Below are positions 10,737 to 55,286 of a stretch of 55,286 bases of DNA, piece after piece. Source of the DNA: a virus; IMG/VR virus record IMGVR_UViG_3300027896_000052, positions 1 to 55,286 of that record, one strand, 5' to 3'. Below the pieces are notes generated by a model, which was not told the DNA's origin, searched no databases, and saw only the letters and a program-made list of their open reading frames with translations. Position 1 is the first letter of the stretch; each line of letters begins with the position of its first letter. Both the position numbers and the translations under genes were made by a program.

Positions 10737-11048
10737 CTACCCGACGAGGGCCTCGTAATGGTGAATTATTTTCCCATTTTGGCACGGTTCGATGCTCAGG
10801 ACAGGGTGATCGATCCCTCCGAAACGAAGGACGGACCGGATGTCGGCCACGGTCATCGGCTTTCGGGACAACATGACGAGGGCCGTCGCTATGAGTTCCT
10901 CGCCTTTCCCGACTCGGAGGACCCGATGTGTCGTTTCGATCCTGCATTTTTCCGGCGTCAACGTCGGGGCCCCGGAAGGTTCGCCCCATTTATCGAGCGC
11001 CTGCTTCACCACGACCAGGTTATTGATCAGCAGGCTTTCGTAGCTCAT
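10737..11048 (-). CDS. Head-tail stopper / adaptor-like protein
   Basis: 103 residues, overlapping the methyltransferase stop by ATGA. A small beta-rich protein (PEKCRIETTHRVLRVGKGEE; SVLRFGGIDHPVLSIEPC) that sits between the two connector regions. In related phages this slot holds the second connector (stopper). The glycan cassette separates it from the first connector at 16731-17363, so the cassette has been inserted within the neck gene set. Confidence 0.6.
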   Translation of the reverse strand: MSYESLLINNLVVVKQALDKWGEPSGAPTLTPEKCRIETTHRVLRVGKGEELIATALVMLSRKPMTVADIRSVLRFGGIDHPVLSIEPCQNGKIIHHYEALVG

Positions 11049-20714: not shown

Positions 20715-23111
20715 TCAGTCTGCTTTTTTGGTCCAAACCGCCGCGGCCTTCCGCGCGGTCCCGCCCATGGAGAAGCCCGTGAGCTTTCCGCTCTGGACTT
20801 CCCCCCAAATCTCGGGATCCGTGACCTTGATCATCATCCACCACGAGCCGGCTTTAATGATCTCTGTCCCTTTTTTCATGTCGGCTTCGGGTTGGAAGCT
20901 CTCCAGGATCGGGAAATAATGGGCCGTCCCTTTGTGCATGACCTTGATCCGATTCGGATTTTTGGCGTAGCGTTCCATGAAGGAATACATCGCCGCGGTG
21001 ATCTCGGCGGCCGTGGTCATGTCGCCCTGGGTATCGACGGCGTTCGGTTCGTAGATGATCCCCCCGCAGATCTGCTGGGCGGCATCGACTTTCCGGATCT
21101 GGAAGACGAGGCGCTTCGAGAACCAGGCCCGCTTCTCCGTGCCCTCTGCCTTTTTGAATTCGGGCGGCTCCTTCTCAAATTCCGCATAATGGGATTTCAG
21201 GTGGTCATAGATCCCGGATCTGTCGGCGACCGGGACGGAGATCTGGGTGCGTCCGCCCTGAAGGGCCGCCATCGCAGCCGCGACGCCCCGCCAGACCGCC
21301 TTCAGACCGTCGGCGTGGTGATGGGGCAGCTTGTAACTCCCTTTGTTGTCCGGAGCTGCAGGATCGACCCATGCACAGATCTTCGCCAGCGTCTCGACGT
21401 CGGCAGCCGCGACCTCGGCGCCAGCGTCCCAGGCCTCAGCCTCCGGAGCCGTCCCATAATCGTGATAGGGGATGACGCCGGCCGCGGCTTTCCCAAAAGG
21501 CTTGGGGGCATGAGCCTCGGCCCAGGTCTTCGCCTTCTCCTCCGTCCATTTGTTCTTGTCGAAGAGGTAGGCCTGGATGTGGGTCGTCCCGCTATTGTCG
21601 GCGGTAAGGTTCCCGATGACGGCTTTGATCCCAAGATCTGCCGAGAGATCGATTATCCGAAACGAATCTTGGGCGAAATCGGCGGGATCCGTGATGCGGA
21701 CCCGGACGTATGCATCGGTCGTCCGGGCCTCGAATTTGTGCATTTTCACCATCTTACGGGCTTCGATTGCTCCATCTGCCCAGGCCGCCTCCTCCTCGAT
21801 CAGATCGAGAACATGTTGAGATGATGGCAGGGTCCGCTTTTTGATATGGCTATCGACCCAGGCTTGGGCGGCTTCCATCGTCCATTTCGTTTTGTCGAAA
21901 AGGTAGGTTGCGATCTGGTGATCGGTCACATCCTCGAGGGCTTTGATCCCCTGGGCCTCGCTCAGGATGATCGTCCGGATTTCATGACCCGCCGGGATGG
22001 CCCGGACCGGGATCCGGCGCAGGGTCATGGTCGTTTCGGGTTTGGCGATGACTTCCTGAGCCGCCTTGTCCGCGCGGAGCCGGTCTCGGAATGTCGTCTC
22101 TTTCATCAGTTCGATATTTTCTTTCGTGTCCATGGATGCCTCCCGTTTTTCGGTTTGAATATCATCTTGCGGGATGTTCTCACCAGACCCGCCAGGATTT
22201 CCTTCATCGATCGCCAAGGCCGAGGGATCGATCTTTTCGATCGGATCCTCATCCTTGCCCTTGCCCAACTCGACCGCCGGATCCGGACCGCCGCCGGGTG
22301 AGTTCGGCTTATTGCAGATGCCGCCGACCGGCTCCTCGTCGCCGCAGATAATACATCGGGGATGGCCATTCGGATGCGTCCACTTCGCGGGCTCGAATTT
22401 GTGTACGCCTTTGGCTTTCGCGCTCTTTGCGCTCTCTCGGATGACGGCGCTCTCGGCTTCGAAGCTCGCTTTTTCCGCCGGCGTCAGGGCTTTCCCGATC
22501 TCGAATTCAGCGTTCCCGTCGCCTCCGTTGCCGGGTACGATTTTATTCGTCGGTTTGGGCCGGAGGACTAGGTCGAAGACCGGCATATGGCTTCTGCCAC
22601 AGCCGGCGTGTTCGTAGGCAACCTGGATATCCTTCCCCGTTTCCTGCAGGGCCTTGGCCAGGCAGGCTTCGAGGGTCGCCGAGCTGTAGAAGATCCCGCG
22701 GTCTGTCCTTCCCGCCTTGATGACCACCTGGACGGCCGAGGCCTCCCGGGGATTTTTAATGAAGTCCCCGGTGATCGCCACGTAATCGTTCGCCAGCACG
22801 ATGTCGCCGAGCCCGGGAACATCCAGGCTCCAGAGCCCCTTCCGGACGACCCGGTCTTTCACCAGGCGATCGATCTCGCGTTCGCCCGAAATCGGAAGTC
22901 CGCGGCGAGTCATCTCAACCCGGAGCTCGACGTACCGGCTCAAGAAATCGCATTTCGCCATTCCGCGGATTTGATCTGTCGCCGGGTCATGGAAGAATCG
23001 ATCGAAAAGCTGGACGAAGCGGAAACGAAAATCTCGCAGCTCTCCATCATCCATGGCCTTGAAGGTCTCGGCCTTCGCTTCTTCGATGAGGTGTTTAAAT
23101 TTGGCCGGCAT
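20715..23111 (-). CDS. Multidomain prohead protein with C-terminal XkdF-type protease
   Basis: 798 residues. The C-terminal 120 residues match putative phage protease XkdF: GGIIYEPNAVDTQGD, a His in RIKVMHKGTAHYFPI, GSWWMMIKVTDPEIWGEV and the serine in LTGFSMGGTARK. The His and Ser are the likely catalytic pair. The N-terminal part (about 1-230) has a separate fold, then a zinc-knuckle-like CIICGDEEPVGGICNKP. Two copies of a repeat (YLFDKTKWTMEAAQAWVDSH and YLFDKNKWTEEKAKTWAEAH) lie in the middle. Probably cleaves scaffold and capsid arms during maturation. Unusually long for XkdF. Confidence 0.78.
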   Translation of the reverse strand: MPAKFKHLIEEAKAETFKAMDDGELRDFRFRFVQLFDRFFHDPATDQIRGMAKCDFLSRYVELRVEMTRRGLPISGEREIDRLVKDRVVRKGLWSLDVPGLGDIVLANDYVAITGDFIKNPREASAVQVVIKAGRTDRGIFYSSATLEACLAKALQETGKDIQVAYEHAGCGRSHMPVFDLVLRPKPTNKIVPGNGGDGNAEFEIGKALTPAEKASFEAESAVIRESAKSAKAKGVHKFEPAKWTHPNGHPRCIICGDEEPVGGICNKPNSPGGGPDPAVELGKGKDEDPIEKIDPSALAIDEGNPGGSGENIPQDDIQTEKREASMDTKENIELMKETTFRDRLRADKAAQEVIAKPETTMTLRRIPVRAIPAGHEIRTIILSEAQGIKALEDVTDHQIATYLFDKTKWTMEAAQAWVDSHIKKRTLPSSQHVLDLIEEEAAWADGAIEARKMVKMHKFEARTTDAYVRVRITDPADFAQDSFRIIDLSADLGIKAVIGNLTADNSGTTHIQAYLFDKNKWTEEKAKTWAEAHAPKPFGKAAAGVIPYHDYGTAPEAEAWDAGAEVAAADVETLAKICAWVDPAAPDNKGSYKLPHHHADGLKAVWRGVAAAMAALQGGRTQISVPVADRSGIYDHLKSHYAEFEKEPPEFKKAEGTEKRAWFSKRLVFQIRKVDAAQQICGGIIYEPNAVDTQGDMTTAAEITAAMYSFMERYAKNPNRIKVMHKGTAHYFPILESFQPEADMKKGTEIIKAGSWWMMIKVTDPEIWGEVQSGKLTGFSMGGTARKAAAVWTKKAD

Positions 23112-24210
23112 CCCCTCCCCCTTCCCCTCGAGGGATCTCTTCTCCCATTTTCAGACCTTCCATGAAATCGCAGGTCGAGACCGCCGAGCATCGGAGGATT
23201 GTCAACCAGCCGTGCTTCTTCCACCAGCAGCAAGCCTGCTTTTCAAAAAGCGGGGATCCACATTCCGGACATTTTCGATTTGGATCGGCCGGCCCGATCC
23301 GTCCCTGGAGTTCGATATGCTCCCGGGCGAGTTTCAGGATATAGGCGGCGATGGCTTCCGGCTTCAGGTGGTGCTCATAATAATCTCGGCCAGCCTCCTC
23401 GACTGTCTTGCGATCGGCCGGCCGCTCGAGCCATTCCTGCATGATCGCCGTCGCGTTCGAGAAGTCCGGGGCGACCTCGATGAAGGCGCCGGTCAGGGGA
23501 AAAGCCACGGCGACCGTGAGAGGCGGGGCGATGAGGGCCGTGCCGATGCCGAAGGTTTCGGTATGCCGCCAGGTCCAGGGCCCGATCCCAGGCGCCGTGA
23601 CGTTCAGGTCGGCCCTGGCGATCGCCTGGCAATACTGGACAGCCGTGAGTTTCGGGCCCCAAAGGGCTTGGGGGACCTCCGGGCGGTTCGACCTGCCCGA
23701 TACCCCGGCTAAGATCGTCTTCCCCTTGGGCGCCTTGACAGCCTTCGTCGCCGCGACCGCCTTGCATCGGACCTCGTAGGCCGTAGACCGCAGCAGGGCG
23801 ATGGCGGCGTAGAGGCGAATGCCGCTGGCCCGGATGGCCCGATATTCCGCGAGGCCGTCCATGAGATGCGGCCCGCAGGCGATCCCTATCGGGTAGAAAT
23901 CGGGTCGCCCGGCATCCTCGTGGGTCAGGTTCATCTTGAGATAGATATCATCCTTCGCCATGACCTCCGGGTGGATTACGTGAGGAAAATCGGCGAAGTC
24001 GTACCAGGCCCTCATCATCCTGTCTTCGTCCTCGACCTGGATCGGGATGACGCCCTTACCCTCGAATCCCAGGGCTCCATGGACCATCGCCAGGAGGGCC
24101 TTGTCTTCCTTGAAGTCGATCCCTTTGGTCTGGTAGAAACCGCTGCGTAGAAAATGGGCGTAAAATTCTGCTCCATGGCCACAGGTCGGAGGCATCCGGA
24201 CTTTAAGCAT
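23095..24210 (-). CDS. Glycosyltransferase-like protein with C-terminal zinc ribbon
   Basis: 371 residues. The region near 220-315 resembles the C-terminal half of spore-coat/GT1-2 type glycosyltransferases: ETFGIGTALIAPPLTVAVAF, GAFIEVAPDFSNATAIMQEW, then ADRKTVEEAGRDYYEHHLKP. The end carries CPECGSPLFEKQACCWWKK, a zinc-ribbon-like Cys set. The N terminus (PPTCGHGAEFYAHFLRSGF) is also Cys/His-bearing. It sits between the MuF-like and protease genes, an odd place for a glycosyltransferase. The link is a weak pattern match. Confidence 0.5.
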   Translation of the reverse strand: MLKVRMPPTCGHGAEFYAHFLRSGFYQTKGIDFKEDKALLAMVHGALGFEGKGVIPIQVEDEDRMMRAWYDFADFPHVIHPEVMAKDDIYLKMNLTHEDAGRPDFYPIGIACGPHLMDGLAEYRAIRASGIRLYAAIALLRSTAYEVRCKAVAATKAVKAPKGKTILAGVSGRSNRPEVPQALWGPKLTAVQYCQAIARADLNVTAPGIGPWTWRHTETFGIGTALIAPPLTVAVAFPLTGAFIEVAPDFSNATAIMQEWLERPADRKTVEEAGRDYYEHHLKPEAIAAYILKLAREHIELQGRIGPADPNRKCPECGSPLFEKQACCWWKKHGWLTILRCSAVSTCDFMEGLKMGEEIPRGEGGGDAGQI

Positions 24211-25279
24211 GGCGAGTCCTCCTCGAGCGGGTGAGTCTCTGCGGTCGAGATCGTTTTACCAATCGCTTCCTGACCCGGCCTGAAAACTGCGAAACGGTCT
24301 TTTTGTCAAACTGAGCTTTTTGCTTGGCCATCATCTGGACTTCCTCGGCTGGGATCTGGGTATCTCCCTCGTCTGGGCCCTCGGCATAAACCCAGGTCCC
24401 CTCACAATTTGGATGAGCGGGCAGGACGCCCTCGGCATCATCGACTGAATAGATCGACCCATTATCTTCCCGGCATTCATCAGGATCCCCAACTGGATCT
24501 TCGACGCGCTCGAGGTACTTGATGTCGTTTTCTTTATAGGCCGAGCGGATCCCCTCATTTAGGGCATAGGAGGTTTCCGTCCGGGCGATCGTGTCCGTCC
24601 GGTAGGCCAGGAGCCGATCCGCGTACCGGCCGGCCCGCTCATCAGCCGTCTCTTCGTCCATCCCGCCATCGACGAGCTTCGACCAATAATTCCCGACGGC
24701 TGCCGTTTGCTTTTCTGTGAGTCCGACTACATTGTTCGTTCGCAGATCCCGAGCGATCGCCTGGTTCGATTTGCCGTTGACGATCCGCGGGGCGATGAAG
24801 CCGATGATGCCCTGGCGGGTCCGCTCCGTGATCTCCGTGATGAGTTCGCCCGTGTGTTCGAGGCTCCACTTGTAGGCCGCCTCCGGCTGCGGGCCCTTGA
24901 GCGGAATGTATGGCCCGGGGCTACTTCCGCCGACGTCCTTGGCCATTCGGGAGGCCTTGAATTTGGCTACCTTGGGCATGGCCAGCTCCCAGCCGGTACC
25001 GTGCCCCAGGTCAATCGATGAAAGAAAGATCCGACGGCCTTGATCCTCGACCCATTTCCAGTCGATCAGGTTGTCCGCGATTTCCGTAGCCGTCTTTCCC
25101 TTGAGGCCCGCCTTGATCTTGGTATTCAGTACCTTCCGAATCATCATCATCCAGGCAGCCGACGCCAGCGTCATCCGCCGGCGTATGGACCTGGCCGCCT
25201 GCTTTTTCTGACGGATGATCTCATGCCGGCGAGCATTCGTCAGTTTCTTCCGGATCGAAATGAGCTCGGTCAGGTCCAT
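24203..25279 (-). CDS. MuF-like head morphogenesis protein
   Basis: 358 residues; the start at 25279 overlaps the previous stop (TAATG). The SPP1 gp7/MuF pattern is clear: a helical N-terminal part, then ADRLLAYRTDTIARTETSYA with NEGIRSAYKEN, followed by RVEDPVGDPDECREDNGSIY and PAHPNCEGTWVY (the conserved Asp-Cys/His-Pro-Cys of the family). It binds the portal inside the head. Near the C terminus is the octapeptide QFDKKTVS, which the terminase tail also contains, encoded by the same 24-base sequence. Confidence 0.85.
   Translation of the reverse strand: MDLTELISIRKKLTNARRHEIIRQKKQAARSIRRRMTLASAAWMMMIRKVLNTKIKAGLKGKTATEIADNLIDWKWVEDQGRRIFLSSIDLGHGTGWELAMPKVAKFKASRMAKDVGGSSPGPYIPLKGPQPEAAYKWSLEHTGELITEITERTRQGIIGFIAPRIVNGKSNQAIARDLRTNNVVGLTEKQTAAVGNYWSKLVDGGMDEETADERAGRYADRLLAYRTDTIARTETSYALNEGIRSAYKENDIKYLERVEDPVGDPDECREDNGSIYSVDDAEGVLPAHPNCEGTWVYAEGPDEGDTQIPAEEVQMMAKQKAQFDKKTVSQFSGRVRKRLVKRSRPQRLTRSRRTRHA
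24291..24314. repeat. 24-bp exact repeat, copy in the MuF-like gene
   Basis: The same 24 bases occur at 29192-29215 in the terminase gene, in the same strand and reading frame, encoding QFDKKTVS in both. Flanks are unrelated on both sides. A 24-base match is far beyond chance in 55 kb. Confidence 0.9.
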
Positions 25280-25521
25280 TATCTTTTCTTCCGTTTCGGG
25301 TAGATTCTGATCGTCCGCCCGTCTTCCAATTCGATCTCTCCCCAAATCTTCCCATGGCCGCAGCAGGAACCGCGCATATTGATCCCGGCTTCTTGGAAGG
25401 CTCGAACGATCGGGGCGATGCACTTATCGATCTTCATTCTTTTCCACTTGGCCCGACCCGAGCAGGACAGGTCAGCCGGGATCCTGATGCGTACCAATTC
25501 GTGAGTCCCCCATTTACACAT
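25279..25521 (-). CDS. Small Cys-rich protein
   Basis: 80 residues, overlapping its neighbours by 3-8 bases. Cysteines occur in MCKWGTHE, DLSCSGRAKWKR, KIDKCIAPIVRAFQ and MRGSCCGHGKIWGEIELEDG, suggesting a zinc or metal site. The last segment (GEIELEDGRTIRIYPKRKKR) is beta then basic. Similar small proteins recur in phage genomes but I cannot name a function. Confidence 0.75.
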   Translation of the reverse strand: MCKWGTHELVRIRIPADLSCSGRAKWKRMKIDKCIAPIVRAFQEAGINMRGSCCGHGKIWGEIELEDGRTIRIYPKRKKR

Positions 25522-25693
25522 TCTTCCGGCTCCGTTTCTTGATCAGGCCCTCTCTCATGAAGTCGGCCTGGAATTTGCGATACAGGGCATGGTGGGCCTG
25601 CTCATCGAGATAGACGTCGCCCATCCGAGATTCCGTCTTTGCCGCGCAGAGAGCCACGGTTTTGCTCCGTATCGTTCTTATCCGGATCGACAT
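25514..25693 (-). CDS. Small basic protein of unknown function
   Basis: 59 residues between the phosphatase and the Cys-rich protein; its start codon is 5 bases after the phosphatase stop region and its stop overlaps the next start. Sequence features: a basic opening (SIRIRTIRSKTVALCAAK), a helical middle (DEQAHHALYRKFQADFMREG) and a basic tail. Not recognised. Confidence 0.65.
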   Translation of the reverse strand: MSIRIRTIRSKTVALCAAKTESRMGDVYLDEQAHHALYRKFQADFMREGLIKKRSRKNV

Positions 25694-25699
25694 TCTGCC

Positions 25700-26284
25700 T
25701 CAGAGCCCGACCGCTTTTTTCAGCTTCGGGATGTCGGCGCCTCGGATCCAACCCGCGAGGTTTCCCCACAGCCAATGAAATCCGAATCCGCCATGAAGCA
25801 TCTCGTCGACGGCCTGCTCCTTCGTCCAGTTTTCGAAGACGATCCTGAACAGGGCGACCGACCAGCCCGTCCGGTCCGAGCCGTGCTGGCAATGGATGAG
25901 AACCGGGCCCGGGGCTATCTTGATTGCTTTCAGTACTGCGACGGCGTCCTCGAATTCGGGGTGCCAGGTGTGGGCGGGGATGTATGTCTCTTCGATCCCC
26001 TTGGGCAATAGGGCTTTATCGGGGTGCCCGGCATAGAGGTTGATATCCGTCGTTATGCCCAACTCCACGAGGCCCTTGGAGAAGCCCTCCGCCAGCGGTA
26101 GTGCCGATCGATAGACGGTCCATCGCGCGGGCGGCGCCGAAACCCGAAAAAGGTTCGGCAGGCCGGCGACCGTCATCGACTGTGCCCAGGTGCCCGGGCG
26201 ATCGACGATCGGTACGGGGACCGCGATCGCACAGGAAGAAAATAATAGGCCGACCAAGACGATCCAAAGAATCTTTTTGATCAT
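25700..26284 (-). CDS. Exported lipoprotein dual-specificity (tyrosine) phosphatase
   Basis: 194 residues with a strong AGGAGG site. Residues 1-17 form a signal peptide (KKILWIVLVGLLF) ending in a lipobox-like FSSC with Cys18. The catalytic P-loop HCQHGSDRTG gives Cys132 and Arg138 (CX5R), preceded by APGPVLI, as in cysteine phosphatases of the DSP/PTP class; WTVYRSALP is a typical N-terminal motif. The domain looks complete. It lies in the head operon between MuF and portal-side genes, unusual for a phage. Export suggests action in the periplasm or at the cell surface after expression in the host. Substrate unknown. Confidence 0.85.
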   Translation of the reverse strand: MIKKILWIVLVGLLFSSCAIAVPVPIVDRPGTWAQSMTVAGLPNLFRVSAPPARWTVYRSALPLAEGFSKGLVELGITTDINLYAGHPDKALLPKGIEETYIPAHTWHPEFEDAVAVLKAIKIAPGPVLIHCQHGSDRTGWSVALFRIVFENWTKEQAVDEMLHGGFGFHWLWGNLAGWIRGADIPKLKKAVGL

Positions 26285-26310
26285 ATCAGCCCTCCTCTTG
26301 GGTGATTTAT

Positions 26311-26451
26311 TTAATCCCGGCCGAAGGTCACGATTCTGATGATACTCCGACCGCGGAGAAGAAATGCGCTCTCCGGTGCCATCCCGGTCGTCTTCAGCAA
26401 GGTCAACATGCCGATCCGCGATGGCCGCTGCGGTCCCTGGGCGATCGCCAT
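26311..26451 (-). CDS. Short ORF, possibly the frameshifted end of the upstream gene
   Basis: 46 residues from ATG 26451 (AIAQGPQRPSRIGMLTLLKT) to TAA. Its frame is the -1 frame of the gene at 26403-26762 and is open from just upstream (NHLIFDEAM), with codons like those of neighbouring genes. The zero frame meanwhile turns into Arg/Ser-rich sequence before stopping. Either this is a separate small gene with a weak ribosome site (GAGG), or the two form one gene split by a frameshift near the C5 run at 26489-26493. Confidence 0.5.
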   Translation of the reverse strand: MAIAQGPQRPSRIGMLTLLKTTGMAPESAFLLRGRSIIRIVTFGRD

Positions 26452-26762
26452 CGCCTCGTCGAAAATGAGGTGATTGTCGGACCGCCTATGGGGGCCTCAT
26501 TGAGTACCCGGTCGATCATCTCCAGGACCTCGTGAGCCATGGCCATCCGACCTTCCGGCGTCTTCAGGTCCTGTTCCTGGAGGCCATCTGTGATCTTGAC
26601 GATCTTCCCATCGATGGCGGCGAGCGAAGATGATCCGGATTTCCGCGCCAGTTCTTCTTTCCAGCCAGTCCTGTCGAGGGTCGGAGCTGGCGGCTGGCCG
26701 ATCCCTAGGGGATCGCGGCGATGGCCTTCTTCGTCGACCGTGACGTTCAGGTCTTTGGGCAT
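26403..26762 (-). CDS. Unknown small protein, C terminus possibly out of frame
   Basis: 119 residues; the start overlaps the previous stop (TGATG). The body is helical and acidic (WKEELARKSGSSSLAAIDGK; DLKTPEGRMAMAHEVLEMID). After APIGG the sequence becomes Ser/Arg-rich (FSTRRWRSPRDRSGHRGSAC), which looks like out-of-frame translation. See the overlapping short ORF. Function unknown. Confidence 0.6.
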   Translation of the reverse strand: MPKDLNVTVDEEGHRRDPLGIGQPPAPTLDRTGWKEELARKSGSSSLAAIDGKIVKITDGLQEQDLKTPEGRMAMAHEVLEMIDRVLNEAPIGGPTITSFSTRRWRSPRDRSGHRGSAC

Positions 26763-27088
26763 CAGCCTCTCCCCCGGCCGCCAGGCACGATCAAGGCTGG
26801 GGCCGGCTTGAATTCCGGCTGCCGTCCTGGATTCGGATTCCGCTTCCGGGCCTCCTCCTCCGCCTTTTTGCTTTCGACGAGGATCTCCTCGAGCTTCTCA
26901 GCGGTGATTTCCTTCACCAGGATGATATTGCTCGCGCGCGTTTTGTAACGCGCTCCCGTCGCCGTCACGATCCCGATCATCGCCGAGGGCTTCTTTCGCA
27001 GGGCCTTGTCGAAGCTCGGGTTGTCGTAGGGCTGGTTAATCACCAGCGTCAACGGCGGCTGCTGTGTGTAGATCAAGATTGGCACCAT
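26762..27088 (-). CDS. Unknown protein after portal
   Basis: 108 residues with AGGAGG before the ATG, overlapping the portal 3' end by 53 bases. N-terminal beta-like part (VPILIYTQQPPLTLVINQPY), central MIGIVTATGARYKTRASNII, then an acidic helix (LEEILVESKKAEEEARKRNP) and a Pro/Gly-rich tail. Not recognised. Confidence 0.7.
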   Translation of the reverse strand: MVPILIYTQQPPLTLVINQPYDNPSFDKALRKKPSAMIGIVTATGARYKTRASNIILVKEITAEKLEEILVESKKAEEEARKRNPNPGRQPEFKPAPALIVPGGRGRG

Positions 27089-28775
27089 GGCCTCCTATTT
27101 TGGATTTCTCGTCGGCCAGGATCCCATCGACCCGGGCCGCGAGTTCGTCGATCCGCGTTTCCTTCCCGACCGCTGCGGCGTTCGTCCCGGCATCCGCGAT
27201 CGGCACATAGGTGCTCAGGATATAATATTTGTCCCCTTCCTCCTCCGGCGGGAGCTTCTCGAGTCCGATCTCGACGGCGATGTTGTTCCTGTTCATGACC
27301 CCGATCCCGAAAAGCTTGACGCAGCGGTCGACGATGGCCGTCATGTCCCGGGTATCGACCTCGCCCCACCAGAATTCGTAGGTATCATTCTCGAGGCCGG
27401 CCTGGATGATCTTCTTCGTGATGATCTTGGCCGTCAGGAGCTTGATCGGGTTGACCGTGCTATCGATATAGATCCGGGTCGACTCGGAAGCCGTGCTCCC
27501 GCCAAGACTTCCCTGCTCGGCAATCCCGATCCGGTAGGGCGGCATGCAATAGCAGACCAGGATTTCGTCCCGCAGGTTCTTCGTGTAGAGCTTGAAATGC
27601 CCCTCCTTGATCTCGACGACGAGCGGCTCCCAGACCACGGTCCCGCCCTCCGGAGGGTTGAGCACGACCGTCTTGTGGGAGTTGTTCGAGCCCTTGATCT
27701 CGGCATCGATGAAGTTCGAGATGGCCGTGACCGAGTCGTCTTCCCATTCTCCGGTGATCGTGACCAGGGCGGCCGGGATCCCGTAGTTCTCGAAGAAGGC
27801 CAGGTTGTAATCCCGGATCCCGATCAGGCCCTTCACGGCGCCGACGGCGGAAAGGATCGGGGGCGCGCCGTACCAGCTTGACCGCGGGTAATAGATGCGC
27901 TTGAAGATCAGCTCATTTGCCTTATGGACTTCGTCGCCGGGCTTCAGCGCCTGGCCTGTCCGTTCATCGATATCGCCTTCGACCCCGAATTTCTTGAACC
28001 AGATCCGGTCCGTCCCCCGAATCTGGCAATACTTCTGGCCCTGGCGATGGACGCGGATCGTGTGGGCCGGGATATGGCTGACCATATCGATCCTGCCATC
28101 GGTATCGCGTCCGATCTCGAGAGTCAGCCAGCCGATCGCGTTGTAATCGATGACCGCGGCTTCGAAGATCTCCTCCAGGGTTTCGTCCTCCTCGTTCGGG
28201 TCCTCGAGGAATTCCAAAATGCGCTTCCGCTCGGGATCTACAGCCGGCTCGGCAGGCGGGGTAGGGGCATCCGCCGGCAGGCCATCCTTCCCAGGCGAGG
28301 GCTGGGTATCCTGTTCGGTCTGGTCCGCTTCGTCTTTGAGGTCGAGATCGAATCCCTGGCCGACGACGTCGCGCGCGATCTGCCTGACCGCCTTGTCGAA
28401 GAACGCGCAGTTCTCCATGATCGTCAAGAGCCCGGCGACTTCGAAGGGCAGCGGGACCAGGTCGTATTCCATCATGTACCGGGTGTCTTCCTTGAGCTGC
28501 TTCGATTCCGCCCGCCCGGCCTTCGTCGCCGCCTTCTGGATCGCACTTCGCTGCAGGGTCCCGATCGGGAAAAGACCACGGTCGGTTTTGATGAACGTGT
28601 AGGCCTTCCCCTTCCTGGGGCCTGGGGCCGGCTCGGCTCCCGCGGCTAGATCTCGAGGGGCGGCTATGTCCGCCTCGGCGGCTTCCTCTGCCAGGTCCTT
28701 CAGCGTTTTCGTTGGACCGCCAGCGATCCGCCCGGTTTCATTTCGGGATGAAAACCCGACCTTTCCTTTTCCCAT
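27036..28775 (-). CDS. Portal protein
   Basis: 579 residues with GGAGG 5 bases before the ATG. The portal pattern is plain: GLLTIMENCAFFDKAVRQIA, AVIDYNAIGWLTLEIGRD, DMVSHIPAHTIRVHRQG, NELIFKRIYYPRSSWYGAPP, and the stem/crown part with YGIPAALVTITGEW and CMPPYRIGIAEQGSLGGSTA. This is the PBSX/SPP1-like phage portal type. An insert at 160-185 is Pro/Asp-rich and probably a surface loop. It follows the terminase with a 38-base overlap. Confidence 0.9.
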   Translation of the reverse strand: MGKGKVGFSSRNETGRIAGGPTKTLKDLAEEAAEADIAAPRDLAAGAEPAPGPRKGKAYTFIKTDRGLFPIGTLQRSAIQKAATKAGRAESKQLKEDTRYMMEYDLVPLPFEVAGLLTIMENCAFFDKAVRQIARDVVGQGFDLDLKDEADQTEQDTQPSPGKDGLPADAPTPPAEPAVDPERKRILEFLEDPNEEDETLEEIFEAAVIDYNAIGWLTLEIGRDTDGRIDMVSHIPAHTIRVHRQGQKYCQIRGTDRIWFKKFGVEGDIDERTGQALKPGDEVHKANELIFKRIYYPRSSWYGAPPILSAVGAVKGLIGIRDYNLAFFENYGIPAALVTITGEWEDDSVTAISNFIDAEIKGSNNSHKTVVLNPPEGGTVVWEPLVVEIKEGHFKLYTKNLRDEILVCYCMPPYRIGIAEQGSLGGSTASESTRIYIDSTVNPIKLLTAKIITKKIIQAGLENDTYEFWWGEVDTRDMTAIVDRCVKLFGIGVMNRNNIAVEIGLEKLPPEEEGDKYYILSTYVPIADAGTNAAAVGKETRIDELAARVDGILADEKSKIGGHGANLDLHTAAAVDAGD

Positions 28776-30816
28776 ATTGTCCTCCGTTCGGGCCGGCTAC
28801 CGATCCGGTCCCGGAATTCGCGTCTACAGGCCCTACAACGGGCTTTTGACCGTCGGGGGGGCCTGGTACCCGGGGGGCCTGGGCTTCCCCTTGGCTTGCC
28901 CCGGTTCCCGGCGGCGGCGGCCGTAAAGGTTCGCCGTCTGTGACCCCCTCGGGGGGGGGCTGGGGTCCCTGACCCGGCTTAGGGGGCCAGATCTCGTTTA
29001 CCTGGGGGTCCGGCGGCTTCCCGGGCCCCTCATCGTTGCCATCAGCTCCCGGAGCTCGCCTGGCTTCGGCTGCCGCCCTTTGGATTGTGTGTTTCTCCGC
29101 GCTGGGGGCCTCGATCGCCGGGGGGCTGATAGGGGGGGCCGCCAGCTGGGATGTCGGGCTCAAATCCGATGCCGGATTGCTTGAAATCGGAGAAACGGTC
29201 TTTTTGTCAAACTGAACAGATGCTTGACCTCCCCCAATGATGGGCAGACCGCCCGTCGCCGCTATGATCCTTGCCGCCGTGGCCACGGGCTGCCCGGCGA
29301 GTCCTGCGATCGCCGCCATGACCGCCGGGTCGATACGGGCGTCGCCTCTCGAGGTGGCCGCCATGGCCTTCGTCGTTACGAAGACCTTGCCTTTCCGCGG
29401 CGCCGGCTTCATTTGCCACATCGCAAAATACCGGGTTTCGTCCATCGCATGGTCCCGCTCCTTGACCGGCTTGCCGTGGCGTTGGATGTAGCCCGCTTCC
29501 TCGGAGATCCAATGCCGGTTGACCTGGTTGATCCACATCGTCGGCGGCCCGATGACCGGACGCAGGGCTTTCCGGACCGCCTCGAGCCCGATGTCGACGT
29601 CGTTATCAGCTTCGGTCATGGGGATGAAGGCCCGCCATTCCGACATCAAGTCCGGCCGGCTGGGATCTCCGACCCCGCCTCGAATGTTCGGCCACCAGGC
29701 CTTCCCCTGAGCCGTTTTGATCAGATGGGGATTGTCGCCGGCTTGCTGGATCTCATCGACCCGGACCCAGCCGATATTGAAGAGCTGCCAGCAGCCAAGG
29801 CTGAAAGGATGGGTCCCGCCCCAGTCGATCGAGACCAGGGCATAGCGTCCGGGATCGAAGCCCGGGAGATCCCCGCGGCTATGAATCTTCGGGTCATATT
29901 GATCGCCGTAAACGAGGTTGCCTGGCCCGATCTTGCGACAGAGCCATTCGACCTGCAGGGCGCTTTCGCTCAGGTACTCGAGCTTGTCGATGAAGTCCTG
30001 GACGCGGTAGAAGCCATCCGCTTGCTTCATGTGCTTTCCCGGGCACCAGCTCGAGAGCTTGCAAGTCGAGCACGAATAATCGAGGCAGGGCTCGAGGCAT
30101 TCCCAAATACACCAGCGGTAGATCGAAGTCTGATGGATCCTGGCCTGCTCCAAGGCCTCATCCATCATGCCGCCCGAGCGGTGGTTCGTCGAATACTGAC
30201 CCAGGCGGGCGAAGATCCCATGCTTCGATTGCGGCTGCGAAAGGGCCGCCCTATATACTTCAGCCGGCATCTCGTCAATTTCGTCCATGATGAGGTGCTG
30301 AGGATGCGGGCCGCGCGTCGATCGCGTGGAGGCCGTCAGGACGGCGACCGTGCTGCCGTTCCGCCAACTCGAGAGGCGCCGCGTCGGCTCCATCTTCAGG
30401 TATTCGTCCTGCAGGGTCGTCAGGGTCCAGATGTCTTCCATGGCCTTGTAGACTTTCTCCGATTGGTCGAGGGATCCGCCGAGGATCGTCGTTTCGAGTC
30501 GATGATTGAAACTCGAAAGGACCCAGGCGATCAGCCCGGCGAGGTAGCTCTTGCTGCCGCTACGATTTGCCCACACGAGGTAATTCAGAATCCTGCCGAT
30601 CAGGACGTCGACCAGGAAATCGAAGGGGGCGCTGTGGTCCGCCTCGAGGCAGTTGTGTCTGGTTCCGACCCGCGGCTCCCGGAGCCAGCCGAGCAGGTTC
30701 TGGACGTCAGCCTTGGTTCTCAGACCCGTCTGTCTTAGGTTCTCGAGGGCTGCCCGCTGGATCGACGGGGCAAACTGGGACGACCAGAATTTCTGGATTT
30801 CTTCCGCCGTCGCCAT
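28738..30816 (-). CDS. Terminase large subunit
   Basis: 692 residues from ATG 30816 (two upstream ATGs at 30948 and 30924 are possible but would overlap the small subunit more). The ATPase has an atypical Walker A ANRSGSKS (83-90) and Walker B LIMDE (175-179). The nuclease has Asp331 (VSIDWGG) and Asp384 (GVGDPSRPDL). A Cys cluster lies at 240-258. After residue 520 comes an unusual tail of about 170 residues, rich in Pro, Ala and Gly, that includes QFDKKTVS. Motor and headful or cos cutting; it docks on the portal. Confidence 0.9.
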   Translation of the reverse strand: MATAEEIQKFWSSQFAPSIQRAALENLRQTGLRTKADVQNLLGWLREPRVGTRHNCLEADHSAPFDFLVDVLIGRILNYLVWANRSGSKSYLAGLIAWVLSSFNHRLETTILGGSLDQSEKVYKAMEDIWTLTTLQDEYLKMEPTRRLSSWRNGSTVAVLTASTRSTRGPHPQHLIMDEIDEMPAEVYRAALSQPQSKHGIFARLGQYSTNHRSGGMMDEALEQARIHQTSIYRWCIWECLEPCLDYSCSTCKLSSWCPGKHMKQADGFYRVQDFIDKLEYLSESALQVEWLCRKIGPGNLVYGDQYDPKIHSRGDLPGFDPGRYALVSIDWGGTHPFSLGCWQLFNIGWVRVDEIQQAGDNPHLIKTAQGKAWWPNIRGGVGDPSRPDLMSEWRAFIPMTEADNDVDIGLEAVRKALRPVIGPPTMWINQVNRHWISEEAGYIQRHGKPVKERDHAMDETRYFAMWQMKPAPRKGKVFVTTKAMAATSRGDARIDPAVMAAIAGLAGQPVATAARIIAATGGLPIIGGGQASVQFDKKTVSPISSNPASDLSPTSQLAAPPISPPAIEAPSAEKHTIQRAAAEARRAPGADGNDEGPGKPPDPQVNEIWPPKPGQGPQPPPEGVTDGEPLRPPPPGTGASQGEAQAPRVPGPPDGQKPVVGPVDANSGTGSVAGPNGGQYGKRKGRVFIPK
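29192..29215. repeat. 24-bp exact repeat, copy in the terminase gene
   Basis: Identical to 24291-24314 and in the same frame, encoding QFDKKTVS in the Pro-rich C-terminal tail of the large terminase. See the copy in the MuF-like gene. Confidence 0.9.
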
Positions 30817-31840
30817 TGCCGTTGCCGTTCCCTGGGGCTGCGGTCGAAGGGGCTCCGCCGGCGGCCGGCAAGAATCCCCGAAGACGGGCGATGAGTTCCC
30901 TTGGGTTTGGGGTACCGAATTCATGCATAAACTCCGCCATCTGTTCATTCAGGGTCATCCGAAGATCCCGGATTTCGACCCGCTTTGGGATCTGTTCTAT
31001 GAATCCCAAATTGACCAGCTCCTCCCTGTATTCGCGCTCGATGTCCCAATAGGCTTCGTAGTCCTTCTCGGCCAGGGCCATCTCCTGGGCGGTCTGTTTT
31101 ACGAAAACGAGATCCGCGAAAACATTCTGGGTATTCAAGTCCGGGATCAGGACCGCGGCATCCTCCCGGATCAGTCGCTGCCTCTTTGATCGAATTTCCT
31201 TCGGGGTCCGTTCAAGAAGATCCGCAATCGCTCCTACCGTGATATCCGGCTGCCTGGCCGTGAAGTAGACGATGATGGCGTCGACCTGGTGACGGGTCAG
31301 GACTCGGGGATCGATCCCGGCCGGCCGCTGGGGCTGCTTCGTCTCCCGGGCTTCCCGTTCGGCCGCCTTGAATGCCTGGACCTTGGAGATCAAGGTCCGG
31401 ATGCGATCGAGGCTTGACTTCGGGGGGGTTTGACCGACGGCGAGCCGTGCCTCCCCCCGCTCCCGGCGAGCCCGACGCATCCTTCGGAGCTGGAGGGCCC
31501 GCTTAAAGGCCTCGGGTCCTCCTTTGAAATTCTCTATGCCAACCGTACTGGGGCCGCCTTCCAGGGTTAATCTTCCCAGGGTTTGGATTCGGGAGAGCGT
31601 CGATGCCGAAAACTCCGGGAGAAGAAGGGGTAGGGGGTCGCTACTCACGACGCCGAGGGTGCTTTTGGCACCTGCTTCTGTCGAAGCGATTTCAGCCGTG
31701 GCTTTCGCGGCCCCCTCCACAAGGGGTTTCGAATTTATGGGGTGGAGAAGGGAACCGGCTGGAACATCGTTGCCGCCTAGGACGGCAGCCCCCATGGAAG
31801 CCCGAGAGGTACCGGCCCCTTCCCCTTCTTTAATGGTCAT
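30707..31840 (-). CDS. Terminase small subunit-like protein
   Basis: 377 residues directly before the large terminase, overlapping it by about 110 bases. Residues about 150-220 hold a helix-turn-helix-like region (LTRHQVDAIIVYFTARQPDI, then VGAIADLLERTPKEIRSKRQ), and a long helical region follows (EKDYEAYWDIEREYREELVN). The first 100 residues and the last 50 are low complexity. Larger than the usual 150-200 residues. DNA recognition for packaging is inferred from order plus the HTH pattern. Confidence 0.68.
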   Translation of the reverse strand: MTIKEGEGAGTSRASMGAAVLGGNDVPAGSLLHPINSKPLVEGAAKATAEIASTEAGAKSTLGVVSSDPLPLLLPEFSASTLSRIQTLGRLTLEGGPSTVGIENFKGGPEAFKRALQLRRMRRARRERGEARLAVGQTPPKSSLDRIRTLISKVQAFKAAEREARETKQPQRPAGIDPRVLTRHQVDAIIVYFTARQPDITVGAIADLLERTPKEIRSKRQRLIREDAAVLIPDLNTQNVFADLVFVKQTAQEMALAEKDYEAYWDIEREYREELVNLGFIEQIPKRVEIRDLRMTLNEQMAEFMHEFGTPNPRELIARLRGFLPAAGGAPSTAAPGNGNGNGDGGRNPEILVVPVCPVDPAGSPREPKTDGSENQG

Positions 31841-32160
31841 GACTTATATGCTATCTCGAAAAGCCCGAGCTGGCCTTTGACCGCGAAGGGTTTGACCAGC
31901 CGGATGTTCCGAAGGACCCAGGCTTTCGCTCTGGGGTAAACAGGACATCCTGCCGCCATTTGGTCGCTGGCCAGCATGGGTCGACAATCTACGAGATCCG
32001 CTATGCATAATGCCTGGCCGGCCTCTGGGCTGGCTGGTCTCTTCGCGCAAACGAAAAGGATCGGTCCTCGATATCTCGTAGACCATTTTCGCGTCTCGAT
32101 CGTTTTCTCGCCGTCCCGGATCATCTGTCCCCAGGGCGGTGTCATCGAAAGAGCCTTCAT
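31837..32160 (-). CDS. ASCH-domain protein
   Basis: 107 residues, ATGA-coupled at both ends. KALSMTPPWGQMIRDGEKTI and ETRKWSTRYRGPILFVCAKR are the ASCH signature, with IADLVDCRPM and the terminal GQLGLFEIAY strand. ASCH domains resemble PUA domains and are thought to bind RNA or modified bases. The domain fills the protein. A second ASCH-like protein lies at 38895-39488. Confidence 0.88.
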   Translation of the reverse strand: MKALSMTPPWGQMIRDGEKTIETRKWSTRYRGPILFVCAKRPASPEAGQALCIADLVDCRPMLASDQMAAGCPVYPRAKAWVLRNIRLVKPFAVKGQLGLFEIAYKS

Positions 32161-52061: not shown

Positions 52062-52334
52062 ATGTCAACCCCAGCGAACATCATTATGAAGGAAGCCGAA
52101 GTCGAGCAGACTGCCGCCGAGGCGATGGGCCTGACCAAGTCCCTCACGGTCAAGGAATTCTTGGCCGGTTCAGCTTCGAAGACCCCGGTCTTCATCTTCG
52201 CGCGCGGCCGGATGAGCCGGGTCGGTCACATCCGCTGGCCGGAAACCGATCCGTGGGTCGTCTGTCCCGACGAGAATGGAGGCTTCGGGATTTCCTATTG
52301 CGTCCACTACGGTACTCGCCTTTGGACGAGATGA
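52062..52334 (+). CDS. Unknown small protein, first plus-strand gene
   Basis: 90 residues with GAGGAGAAAACGAA before the ATG. Acidic N-terminal helix (IIMKEAEVEQTAAEAMGLTK), then SKTPVFIFARGRMSRVGHIR and DPWVVCPDENGGFGISYCVH. Probably early-expressed. Not recognised; takeover or anti-defence functions are common for such genes, but nothing here shows it. Confidence 0.72.
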   Translation: MSTPANIIMKEAEVEQTAAEAMGLTKSLTVKEFLAGSASKTPVFIFARGRMSRVGHIRWPETDPWVVCPDENGGFGISYCVHYGTRLWTR

Positions 52335-52340
52335 GCCGAA

Positions 52341-52395
52341 AAGGGCTGGGAGGCCCTTCGTCCGGGTTGACCGCCCGGACCTGATGAGGCAGGTC
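52341..52395 (+). other. Tandem hairpins between two plus-strand genes
   Basis: Three stems in 55 bases: AAGGGC/GCCCTT (52341-52346 with 52353-52358), GTCCGGG/CCCGGAC (52360-52366 with 52374-52380) and GACCTG/CAGGTC (52378-52383 with 52390-52395). The last two share bases and cannot both be complete. Possibly RNA processing or translational control of the next gene. Confidence 0.6.
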
Positions 52396-52416
52396 AAATC
52401 TTGAAAAGGAGAAAAC

Positions 52417-53132: not shown

Positions 53133-53825
53133 ATGGTATACTCATCCCAGATGAAAAGCATCAGCGTCTATGGTCTTTATTCCACAGAACAGGGGACGTC
53201 TGTCGTCCGCTATGTCGGGCAGACGAAATATCCCTTAAACCAGCGGCGGAATGCTCATGTCAAACGGTCCCTGGGAAAAGCGGCCATTACTCATCTGCAT
53301 CGCTGGGTCCGGGATGTCTATTCGCGAGGCTTCGAGGTCAAGGCGATCCTCTTGAAATCCGGGGCTCATTGGAATTCGGATGAAATTGAATTTATTAGAA
53401 AATTCCGAGCGATGGGGATGGCCCTCACGAATTCCACGGACGGAGGGGAGGGGTGCTTGAATCCATGCCCGGAAATGAGGTCCAAAATCAGCGGATCATT
53501 AAAGGGAAAGCCCCTCCCCTTGAAGACCCGGCAGAAGATGAGTGAGGCTCACAAGGGGAAGGCCCGGTCCCGTGCGATATGCCGAAAAATTAGCAAGGGT
53601 TTGAAGGGCAATAAAAATGCCCTTGGCCGGGTATGCTCCCAGGAAACGATCCGAAAATTGAGCGAGGCCCACAAGCGGGAAAACCTGTCGGCCGAAACCC
53701 GCCGCAAGAATAGCGAATCACATAGAAGGGAAAACTTGTCGGCCGAAACCCTCCGTAAGCGGAGCGAGGGCTCAAAGGCTATGTGGAAACGAAAGAAGGG
53801 GAGGGACTCCGATGGTCGCCCTTAA
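53133..53825 (+). CDS. GIY-YIG homing endonuclease with NUMOD3 repeats
   Basis: 230 residues from ATG 53133 (or Met7 at 53151). The catalytic domain has VYGLYSTEQGTSVVRYVGQT (GIY-YIG variant, YG-L ... YVG), NQRRNAHVKR and HWNSDEIEFIRKF with the catalytic Glu. From residue 110 come about five NUMOD3-type DNA-binding repeats (SGSLKGKPL, MSEAHKGKA, LSEAHKREN, NSESHRREN). The last two repeats are nearly identical (RRENLSAET). It lies free-standing directly beside the variable tail locus, whose divergence begins 10 bases after its stop. Likely a mobile selfish gene. Confidence 0.9.
   Translation: MVYSSQMKSISVYGLYSTEQGTSVVRYVGQTKYPLNQRRNAHVKRSLGKAAITHLHRWVRDVYSRGFEVKAILLKSGAHWNSDEIEFIRKFRAMGMALTNSTDGGEGCLNPCPEMRSKISGSLKGKPLPLKTRQKMSEAHKGKARSRAICRKISKGLKGNKNALGRVCSQETIRKLSEAHKRENLSAETRRKNSESHRRENLSAETLRKRSEGSKAMWKRKKGRDSDGRP
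53134..53142 (+). promoter_or_regulatory. Possible extended -10 promoter of the endonuclease
   Basis: TGGTATACT fits the extended -10 form (TGnTATACT) but there is no convincing -35. Transcription would begin near Met7 (53151), giving an almost leaderless message. Freestanding homing endonuclease genes often have such internal promoters. Weak evidence. Confidence 0.35.
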
Positions 53826-53834
53826 AAAGCCCGT
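53735..53834. repeat. Exact repeat of the contig start (1-100)
   Basis: Second occurrence of bases 1-100; marks where the contig wraps. Sequence after it belongs to allele B of the variable locus. Confidence 0.95.
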
Positions 53835-54030
53835 TCGGCGGATCATCCGAGTTCTCCATCGGCCGGCTGTCATCGTCCTCGACCCCGAAATTTCGAGCAT
53901 CCGTATCCGGTCGAAAGGTTCCCGGCGCGAGTACCGCCTCCATTTCGACCTCGTTTTCCGGCTGGCCATGGAGGCTACGGAGCGGTCCGAAAAGCCGGCC
54001 CGGAAGCTGAGGCGGTCCGTCCTCAAATGA
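53812..54030 (+). CDS. Small conserved basic protein, allele B
   Basis: 72 residues, overlapping the endonuclease stop by 14 bases, with GGGGAGG upstream. Same gene as 78-302 in the other allele; most changes are conservative (SVRLRAKGSRTEYLL against SIRIRSKGSRREYRL) and the C-terminal basic tail differs. Conserved region LHRPAVIVLDPEISS. Function unknown. Confidence 0.75.
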   Translation: MVALKKPVRRIIRVLHRPAVIVLDPEISSIRIRSKGSRREYRLHFDLVFRLAMEATERSEKPARKLRRSVLK

Positions 54031-54482
54031 TCCCTTCCCCGGGGCTGGGGCCGATGGCGGTTCCCGGCCCCGGCCGGCCGTAAACGGCCGCGGCCGATGT
54101 CTTCCCTGCCCTGCAGGGGGCCTCCCCCCATTCACAACGAAAATCAAAAGTCAAGAAAAAGCCCGTTTTTTGGGTAAAATAAACCTCAAAACCGGGCTTT
54201 TTTTATGCCTCTAAATCCGCACACAATCGCCTACGTTCGATTTTTCGGGCTGCGGCTAGGGTCGGTTGTGGGCGGTCCGGATCGTCCGCCACGATCGTTC
54301 CCCTGCGTTTTCCTAAAAATCGCGCTAGGAGCCCCTACAATCGATCGGAGGCTGGATCAGCGTATCCCTGGTCTAGCCCCCGCCGACCGGCTCAAACGCG
54401 GGGGCAGCCCTTGCTAGGGCTGGGTTGAAAATAGGGGGGTCCGTGAATAGCCGCCCGGGTCAGATCAAAACCGGGCTTTTCG
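54031..54482. other. Convergent intergenic region, allele B
   Basis: 452 bases with no supported gene. Holds the allele-B terminator (54156-54204) and a stretch partly similar to allele A after it. Short reading frames here lack ribosome sites and are not conserved in allele A. Confidence 0.6.
54156..54204. terminator. Bidirectional intrinsic terminator, allele B
   Basis: AAAAAGCCCG (54156-54165) pairs with CGGGCTTTTT (54193-54202), with TTTT/AAAA extending the stem inward and a T-run after. Equivalent to 330-379 with a different loop. Confidence 0.87.
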
Positions 54483-55121
54483 TCATCCGGGGCCGAGTTG
54501 GTTGACCGGGTTGATCGTGAAATATTCCCATTCCGCTTGAACCACGGGCTGATTATACCAATTTGCGATGAAGAGTCCGACGCAGAGAGGCCCGATCGCA
54601 GTTGCCAGCGTCCTGGTATAAAACGAGGTCCAGCTCGTTCCATTCGTCGAATAATAGAAAATCCAGAGAGCCCCGAGATGGCTTCCCATGCAGCGAATTT
54701 TGAACCATTTCGGAACCGTTGCCTGGATCGTCGGCCCGGCGTAGAGCCCGCCATTCCCTTCGGTCCGGATTACGTCATCGGAGGCGTCATTGACCTGGTC
54801 GAAGAAGACGTCGTGGACCGAGGCTCCGCCGGCCTGGCCATCCGGGCCAATATAAAGCCCGCTCATGGTCCGGGGCCCTTTATTGAACGAATAGAGCTTG
54901 GCTTCGATGTCGCAGGGCATGAAGGGCAAGGGCATCGTTACCCGCGGCCGGTAATCTGAGCAGTCCTGACCGGCCTTCCCTTCGAAGACGAGTCGGCCGC
55001 CGGCCGGCGCCGCTGTCTTGTCCGAGCCGGATGTCCCCAAGGTCAGCCAGGGGTCCACCAGGGCCGCATTGAAATTATCGGTGAAAACCGGGAAGCCGCT
55101 TGCTCCGGGAATAAATGTCAT
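54483..55121 (-). CDS. Variable tail-tip protein, allele B (LamG/concanavalin-like)
   Basis: 212 residues with a GGAGGG site. Begins TFIPGASGFPVFTDNFNAAL, has VFEGKAGQDCSDYRPRVTMP, MSGLYIGPDGQAGGASVHDV and WFKIRCMGSHLGALWIFYYS, an LamG/laminarin-binding-like beta pattern, and ends WEYFTINPVNQLGPG. It occupies the same place as the allele-A protein (830-1507), with which it shares the opening (MT[Y/F]IPG) and the GPG end but little between. Probable receptor or glycan binder. Confidence 0.75.
   Translation of the reverse strand: MTFIPGASGFPVFTDNFNAALVDPWLTLGTSGSDKTAAPAGGRLVFEGKAGQDCSDYRPRVTMPLPFMPCDIEAKLYSFNKGPRTMSGLYIGPDGQAGGASVHDVFFDQVNDASDDVIRTEGNGGLYAGPTIQATVPKWFKIRCMGSHLGALWIFYYSTNGTSWTSFYTRTLATAIGPLCVGLFIANWYNQPVVQAEWEYFTINPVNQLGPG
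54487..54532. repeat. 46-bp identity with 661-706
   Basis: Encodes the C terminus of the allele-B tail protein here; the same DNA is the 3' end of the 57-residue ORF in allele A. See the finding on recombination. Confidence 0.9.
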
Positions 55122-55133
55122 GGTGCCCTCCGC

Positions 55134-55286
55134 TCAGATGATATACCAGGTCCCGGCGCCGCCGTCCTGGATCGTTATATTGACCCATTGAGCTGCGATG
55201 ATGTAGCTCGCAGCCCCGTCGATCGTTTCGGCCCCGTTCGGGGTCAGGGTGACCGTGAAGGCGGAGGCATCGATTTTCTTGACGTT
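55134..55286 (-). CDS. Tail fibre accessory protein, 3' part (wrap copy, allele B end)
   Basis: The last 50 codons and stop of the gene complete at 1521-2042, cut by the contig edge. Identical in its first 127 bases to 1547-1673, then differing in the final codons (GTWYII here, GAWYIL there) up to the stop. Shows that the breakpoint lies inside this gene. Confidence 0.85.
   Translation of the reverse strand, partial: NVKKIDASAFTVTLTPNGAETIDGAASYIIAAQWVNITIQDGGAGTWYII
55160..55286. repeat. 127-bp exact repeat of 1547-1673 (contig end)
   Basis: Second occurrence of bases 1547-1673. Just outside it (55159 against 1546) the copies differ. Confidence 0.93.

Follow-up and report, generated by a model that had tools for sequence, protein, structure and literature searches.

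Comparison of a 55,286-nt stretch of viral DNA (IMG/VR record IMGVR_UViG_3300027896_000052, hereafter the window) with its relatives points, with a probability of roughly 0.6, to a short duplicative insertion as the source of a 24-bp direct repeat found in two head genes, in which a piece of the MuF-like head morphogenesis gene would have been copied into the variable linker of the gene for the terminase large subunit (TerL). The repeat is real, yet probably no special device; we infer the direction, age and mechanism of the copying, as well as the lack of function, from the comparisons given below. The features concerned, with reference to the close relative L006 (contig IMGVR_UViG_3300046703_000154), are the following:

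24203-25423, minus strand: MuF-like head morphogenesis gene (PHROG 3517, E 4e-19; alignment with L006)
24278-24290, minus strand: putative diverged continuation of the repeat on the MuF side, 9/13 bases common (blastn; P = 0.013)
24291-24314, minus strand: 24-bp repeat, MuF-like copy and likely donor, reading xxT CAG TTT GAC AAA AAG ACC GTT TCx (QFDKKTVS); present letter for letter in the L006 MuF gene at 10785
27036-28775, minus strand: portal protein gene, between both copies (PF04860, E 8e-21)
28738-30948, minus strand: TerL gene with a long Pro-rich tail (PHROG 9, E 6e-6; alignment with five related proteins)
28741-28761, minus strand: TerL end GRVFIPK (comparison by eye)
29179-29191, minus strand: putative diverged continuation of the repeat on the TerL side, 9/13 bases common (blastn; P = 0.013)
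29192-29215, minus strand: 24-bp repeat, TerL copy within the Pro-rich tail and likely the new one; absent from L006 TerL, where the alignment has an 18-nt gap

The two copies are identical (GAAACGGTCTTTTTGTCAAACTGA on the plus strand), both lie on the minus, gene-coding strand at a distance of 4.9 kb from each other, and the repeat is maximal, one more base on either side breaking the match. Each copy is in frame within its open reading frame and spans seven complete codons (QFDKKTV), preceded by the final base of another codon and followed by two bases of a Ser codon, whose third base lies outside the repeat and differs (TCG in MuF, TCT in TerL). The identical in-frame copies giving QFDKKTVS, as described in the initial annotation, were confirmed over 24/24 bases and in both frames; the two genes had also been named correctly but in reversed order, the copy at 24291 belonging to MuF and that at 29192 to the Pro-rich tail of TerL. 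Setting aside the two diverged window ends, no exact repeat in the window is longer than this pair, with runner-up repeats of 16 bp in the window core, and QFDKKTVS is the sole octapeptide repeated among the 34 minus-strand ORFs compared. A chance origin was rejected, as about 1e-5 exact 24-bp pairs are expected from base composition, and the longest direct repeats in 100 order-3 Markov sequences of equal size measured 15-21 bp. An assembly error would be an unlikely source of the repeat, because coding sequence continues in frame on either side of it. The flanks, said initially to be unrelated, are nearly so: on the gene strand, blastn carries the match 13 bases further in the 3′ direction, nine of them identical (37 bp, 89% identity), with P = 0.013 for this extension and P = 0.13 for the opposite side, in comparison with 20,000 random place pairs (anchored extension scoring, codon phase unmatched). 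Judging from these letters, it is possible that the copied piece was somewhat over 24 bp.

The window MuF-like protein has no Pfam match; its homology to MuF-type head proteins was upheld by the PHROG 3517 match and by three homologues (L012, L036 and L025) that match PF04233. The gene more likely starts at 25279, by comparison with the start point of the L006 orthologue. The predicted structure of the protein has a mean pLDDT of 79.8 with a good body, and from about residue 301 the tail has block means of 43-63 and a poorly supported helix, while the prediction for TerL is poor (mean pLDDT 44.1) and uninformative on disorder. In both proteins, the alignments place the peptide near the C-terminal end, beyond the folded part. 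The start of the portal gene overlaps the end of TerL. The head cluster also includes a tyrosine/dual-specificity phosphatase-like gene (25700-26284, minus strand; PF13350, 27.9 bits, cut-off 22.2), and the gene after MuF (23095-24210, minus strand), 89% identical in L006, shows a weak glycosyltransferase-like match to PF13524, below cut-off.

An exact scan of viral_contigs with the 24-mer retrieved one contig, that of L006, and no occurrence beyond it; a degenerate pattern of the MuF tail matched in viral_contigs the same contig alone. In their best segments, L006 and the window share 80% (TerL) and 78% (MuF) protein identity. L006 bears the 24-mer once, in its MuF gene, and QFDKKTVS is unaltered between the two MuF proteins. 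Its TerL, in turn, has 18 nt (six codons) fewer at the repeat place, followed by a second short gap; both sides align, poorly immediately beside the 18-nt gap, and the tail downstream aligns well in frame. Two marks of a duplicative insertion were found: a donor identical at 24/24 bases and an empty site with both flanks aligned, the immediate flank being the poor part. As both phages have the 24-mer in MuF, the copy there must go back at least to their split, and, together with the 0/24 differences between the copies, this makes a later MuF-to-TerL copy the simplest history. The recent copying suggested in the initial annotation is in agreement with these data, the DNA being identical and L006 having the MuF copy without the TerL copy. 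The presumed polarity, a gain in the window rather than a loss in L006, is read from the sequence of one close relative.

According to the proposed history, a segment of the MuF gene of about 24 bp, possibly reaching 37 bp, would have been copied on the same strand into the Pro-rich linker of TerL, after the split from the L006 lineage, by a replication or recombination error (template switch or patch repair). The insertion would have been kept because the linker tolerates short in-frame additions, its frame being demanded by the conserved TerL end and the overlapping portal start, and the common octapeptide would be a by-product of the copying. Exact repeats of at least 19 bp were found in 1 of 35 kin loci, as a 23-bp pair 34 bases apart, a rarity that would fit an isolated event better than an element that recurs; the count covers 35 of 41 loci, as L001, L002, L007, L008, L011 and L041 duplicate either the window or the L006 contig. 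Templated insertions produced by template switching or patch repair are alike in being short exact copies from the same genome that a relative is without and that lie in an indel-tolerant region; here, by contrast, the mechanism is a presumed one, and neither microhomology nor a scar was clearly seen at the insertion, which counts against plain copying. Among the titles and abstract openings returned by a literature search, no phage-genome case of templated insertion or template switching was found. If the repeat is a plain copy, it would be a small clear example of one phage gene seeding another through a tolerant linker.

The difference in linker length is by itself symmetrical between gain and loss, and would equally suit an old element, of which both genes had a copy in the common ancestor and which L006 TerL later deleted. 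However, two copies dating back to the split would be expected to differ by now, since at positions with the same amino acid the window and L006 use the same codon in 54% (MuF) and 69% (TerL) of cases, yet the repeat copies differ at 0/24 bases. This objection fails only if the DNA itself was held fixed, and such an ancient origin is considered very unlikely.

The initial annotation had read the shared octapeptide as a docking peptide, and in this form QFDKKTVS would bind one partner, the portal or another head protein, TerL having gained it, through copying or some other route, as a second ligand of the partner of the MuF tail. The common frame, the position of both copies near the C-terminal end beyond the folded part, and the unchanged sequence in the two MuF proteins are consistent with this proposal, as is the low confidence of the predicted MuF tail (block means 43-63 pLDDT), which a linear motif might also show. 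Contact of TerL C-terminal segments with the portal in other phages (PMC5727402) also speaks in its favour. Nevertheless, the peptide was not conserved in both genes: outside the window it was found in MuF of L006 only, being missing from all five other TerLs (L006 and the four more distant L003, L004, L005 and L013), and the MuF tail is missing from all 15 distant MuF ends. The codons are identical too, so that selection on the peptide and plain recency are indistinguishable. The shared frame, which had been taken as a pointer to the peptide, lends poor support to docking, because in the same orientation one of the three phases of the 24-mer contains a stop, so that for a readable TerL copy the odds of retaining the donor phase are about even; with both orientations counted, the chance of the donor phase is about one in four or five. 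Taken together, a shared docking peptide appears rather unlikely. A functional peptide would make it possible to test directly whether MuF and TerL meet the same head protein; as a plain copy, the case would instead warn against deducing a common partner from one in-frame peptide found in two head genes.

In addition, the TerL end has another, more widely common motif, GRVFIPK, that stands against docking by QFDKKTVS. It ends TerL in both the window and L006, and comparison by eye revealed that GRIFVP ends the L005 TerL and that GRVFL and GFIYLP lie near the ends of L004 and L013, respectively, with none in L003. From these alignments, GRVFIPK would be a better candidate than QFDKKTVS for a conserved tail peptide or portal docking. 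In D6E and T4, the C-terminal arm of the large terminase contacts the portal (PMC5727402). The window TerL is alike in having a C-terminal extension that ends in a short motif, GRVFIPK, resembled in related TerLs, and different in that QFDKKTVS is placed mid-tail and not at the end, and is conserved in no other TerL examined.

Copies in non-coding or out-of-frame contexts, which would speak against a peptide role, were sought by peptide in 41 loci and by DNA in viral_contigs, and none was found; similarly, no case of altered codons behind an unchanged peptide was seen, and with one close relative both comparisons have little power. The loose peptide pattern matched, among the 41 loci, the window, the L006 contig, one unrelated stretch with stops and nothing else. 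As a DNA site, the 24 bp would be a unit of fixed extent that a terminase, nuclease, recombinase or regulator recognises, present in MuF of both phages and newly in one TerL. The borders argue for it: the identity run between the MuF orthologues of the window and L006 breaks off, on either side, at the very bases where the TerL/MuF repeat does, and all three sequences differ at the borders (C/G/T before, G/A/T after). This coincidence is unexpected from a random copy and counts against plain copying, although it was noticed after the fact and carries no formal probability. Moreover, the unit ignores codon borders and includes TTGACA, a -35 consensus. On the 3′ side of the repeat, TerL shares 9/13 bases with window MuF and 7/13 with L006 MuF, a slightly closer resemblance that favours the proposed copying; if the extension is homologous, its 4/13 differences beside 0/24 suggest that the core is under selection, or else that the extension is chance. 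Against a recognition unit, there is no further copy, the next-best places having at least 8/24 mismatches in the window and 10 mismatches in L006, besides a 7-mismatch place that is the reverse strand of the site itself. Furthermore, the repeat is not palindromic, its folding is unremarkable, no promoter was called at it, and identical runs of at least 24 nt are common between these phages (47 in nine gene pairs, two of them in MuF). A DNA site is accordingly regarded as unlikely, and a fixed-border DNA unit (e.g., one on which a phage nuclease or recombinase acts) that stays constant in MuF and was moved whole into TerL, lending both head proteins one peptide, as quite improbable.

Three further roles of the repeat were rejected. 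A search of positions 22000-32000 gave three promoter-like sites, none of them at TTGACA or elsewhere in the repeat, other promoter types being outside its scope. The folding energies of the three copies lie within about one standard deviation of shuffled sequences, which does not support an RNA structure. Finally, a programmed -1 frameshift at AAAAAG would lead into a frame that misses the next gene and is 94 codons long in the window versus 39 in L006. A possible internal start is the ATG ATG ahead of the MuF copy; the GAGGAA that precedes it is GATGAA in L006.

Distant relatives were gathered with TerL, capsid and portal queries, and the outgroup TerLs fail to align through the linker. A MuF match was present in 17 distant loci, and the ends were read in 15 of these (L015 and L026 were left out): 11 terminate no more than a few residues from the conserved C-x-x-W-V region, another bears a short tail rich in Ala and Gly, and three have long other extensions. 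As judged from these ends, the repeat-bearing MuF tail is confined to the window and L006. The phage collection gave no match by DNA or by MuF protein and five weak matches by TerL protein, and genome_contigs gave no relative with TerL and capsid protein queries. The MuF tail as a protein query had no match, and its DNA gave short partial matches to nine phage and two plasmid records (best E 3e-3, 12-27% query cover).

MuF polymorphic toxins are reported to have exchangeable C-terminal ends (PMC5576092). The relatives of the window are alike, as the part after the MuF-like domain varies from none to long extra domains, one of them weakly ART-like, whereas in the window and L006 the tail is short and basic and bears no recognisable domain. 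No C-terminal toxin domain was found in window MuF, the short tail having no family match in Pfam or PHROG. The long C-terminal extensions belong to the MuF homologues L012:639-1814, L036:2253-3713 and L025:3438-4490, and the ART-like match is that of L036 (PF01129, E 8e-4, below the curated cut-off).

Elsewhere in the window, the last 1.55 kb (53735-55286) repeats the first 1.67 kb (1-1673) in diverged form, identical or about 90% identical at both ends of the stretch and much less so in the middle. This terminal duplicate may reflect a circular genome whose contig ran on into a variant of its own start, or may be a genuine duplication; the record is listed as linear. A plus-strand ORF at 53133-53825 carries a NUMOD3 motif (E 2.7e-4), which often accompanies homing endonucleases. 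A type II hammerhead ribozyme match was detected at 52334-52398 on the plus strand (46.6 bits, E 1.8e-6), complete over positions 1-66 and above the Rfam gathering score.
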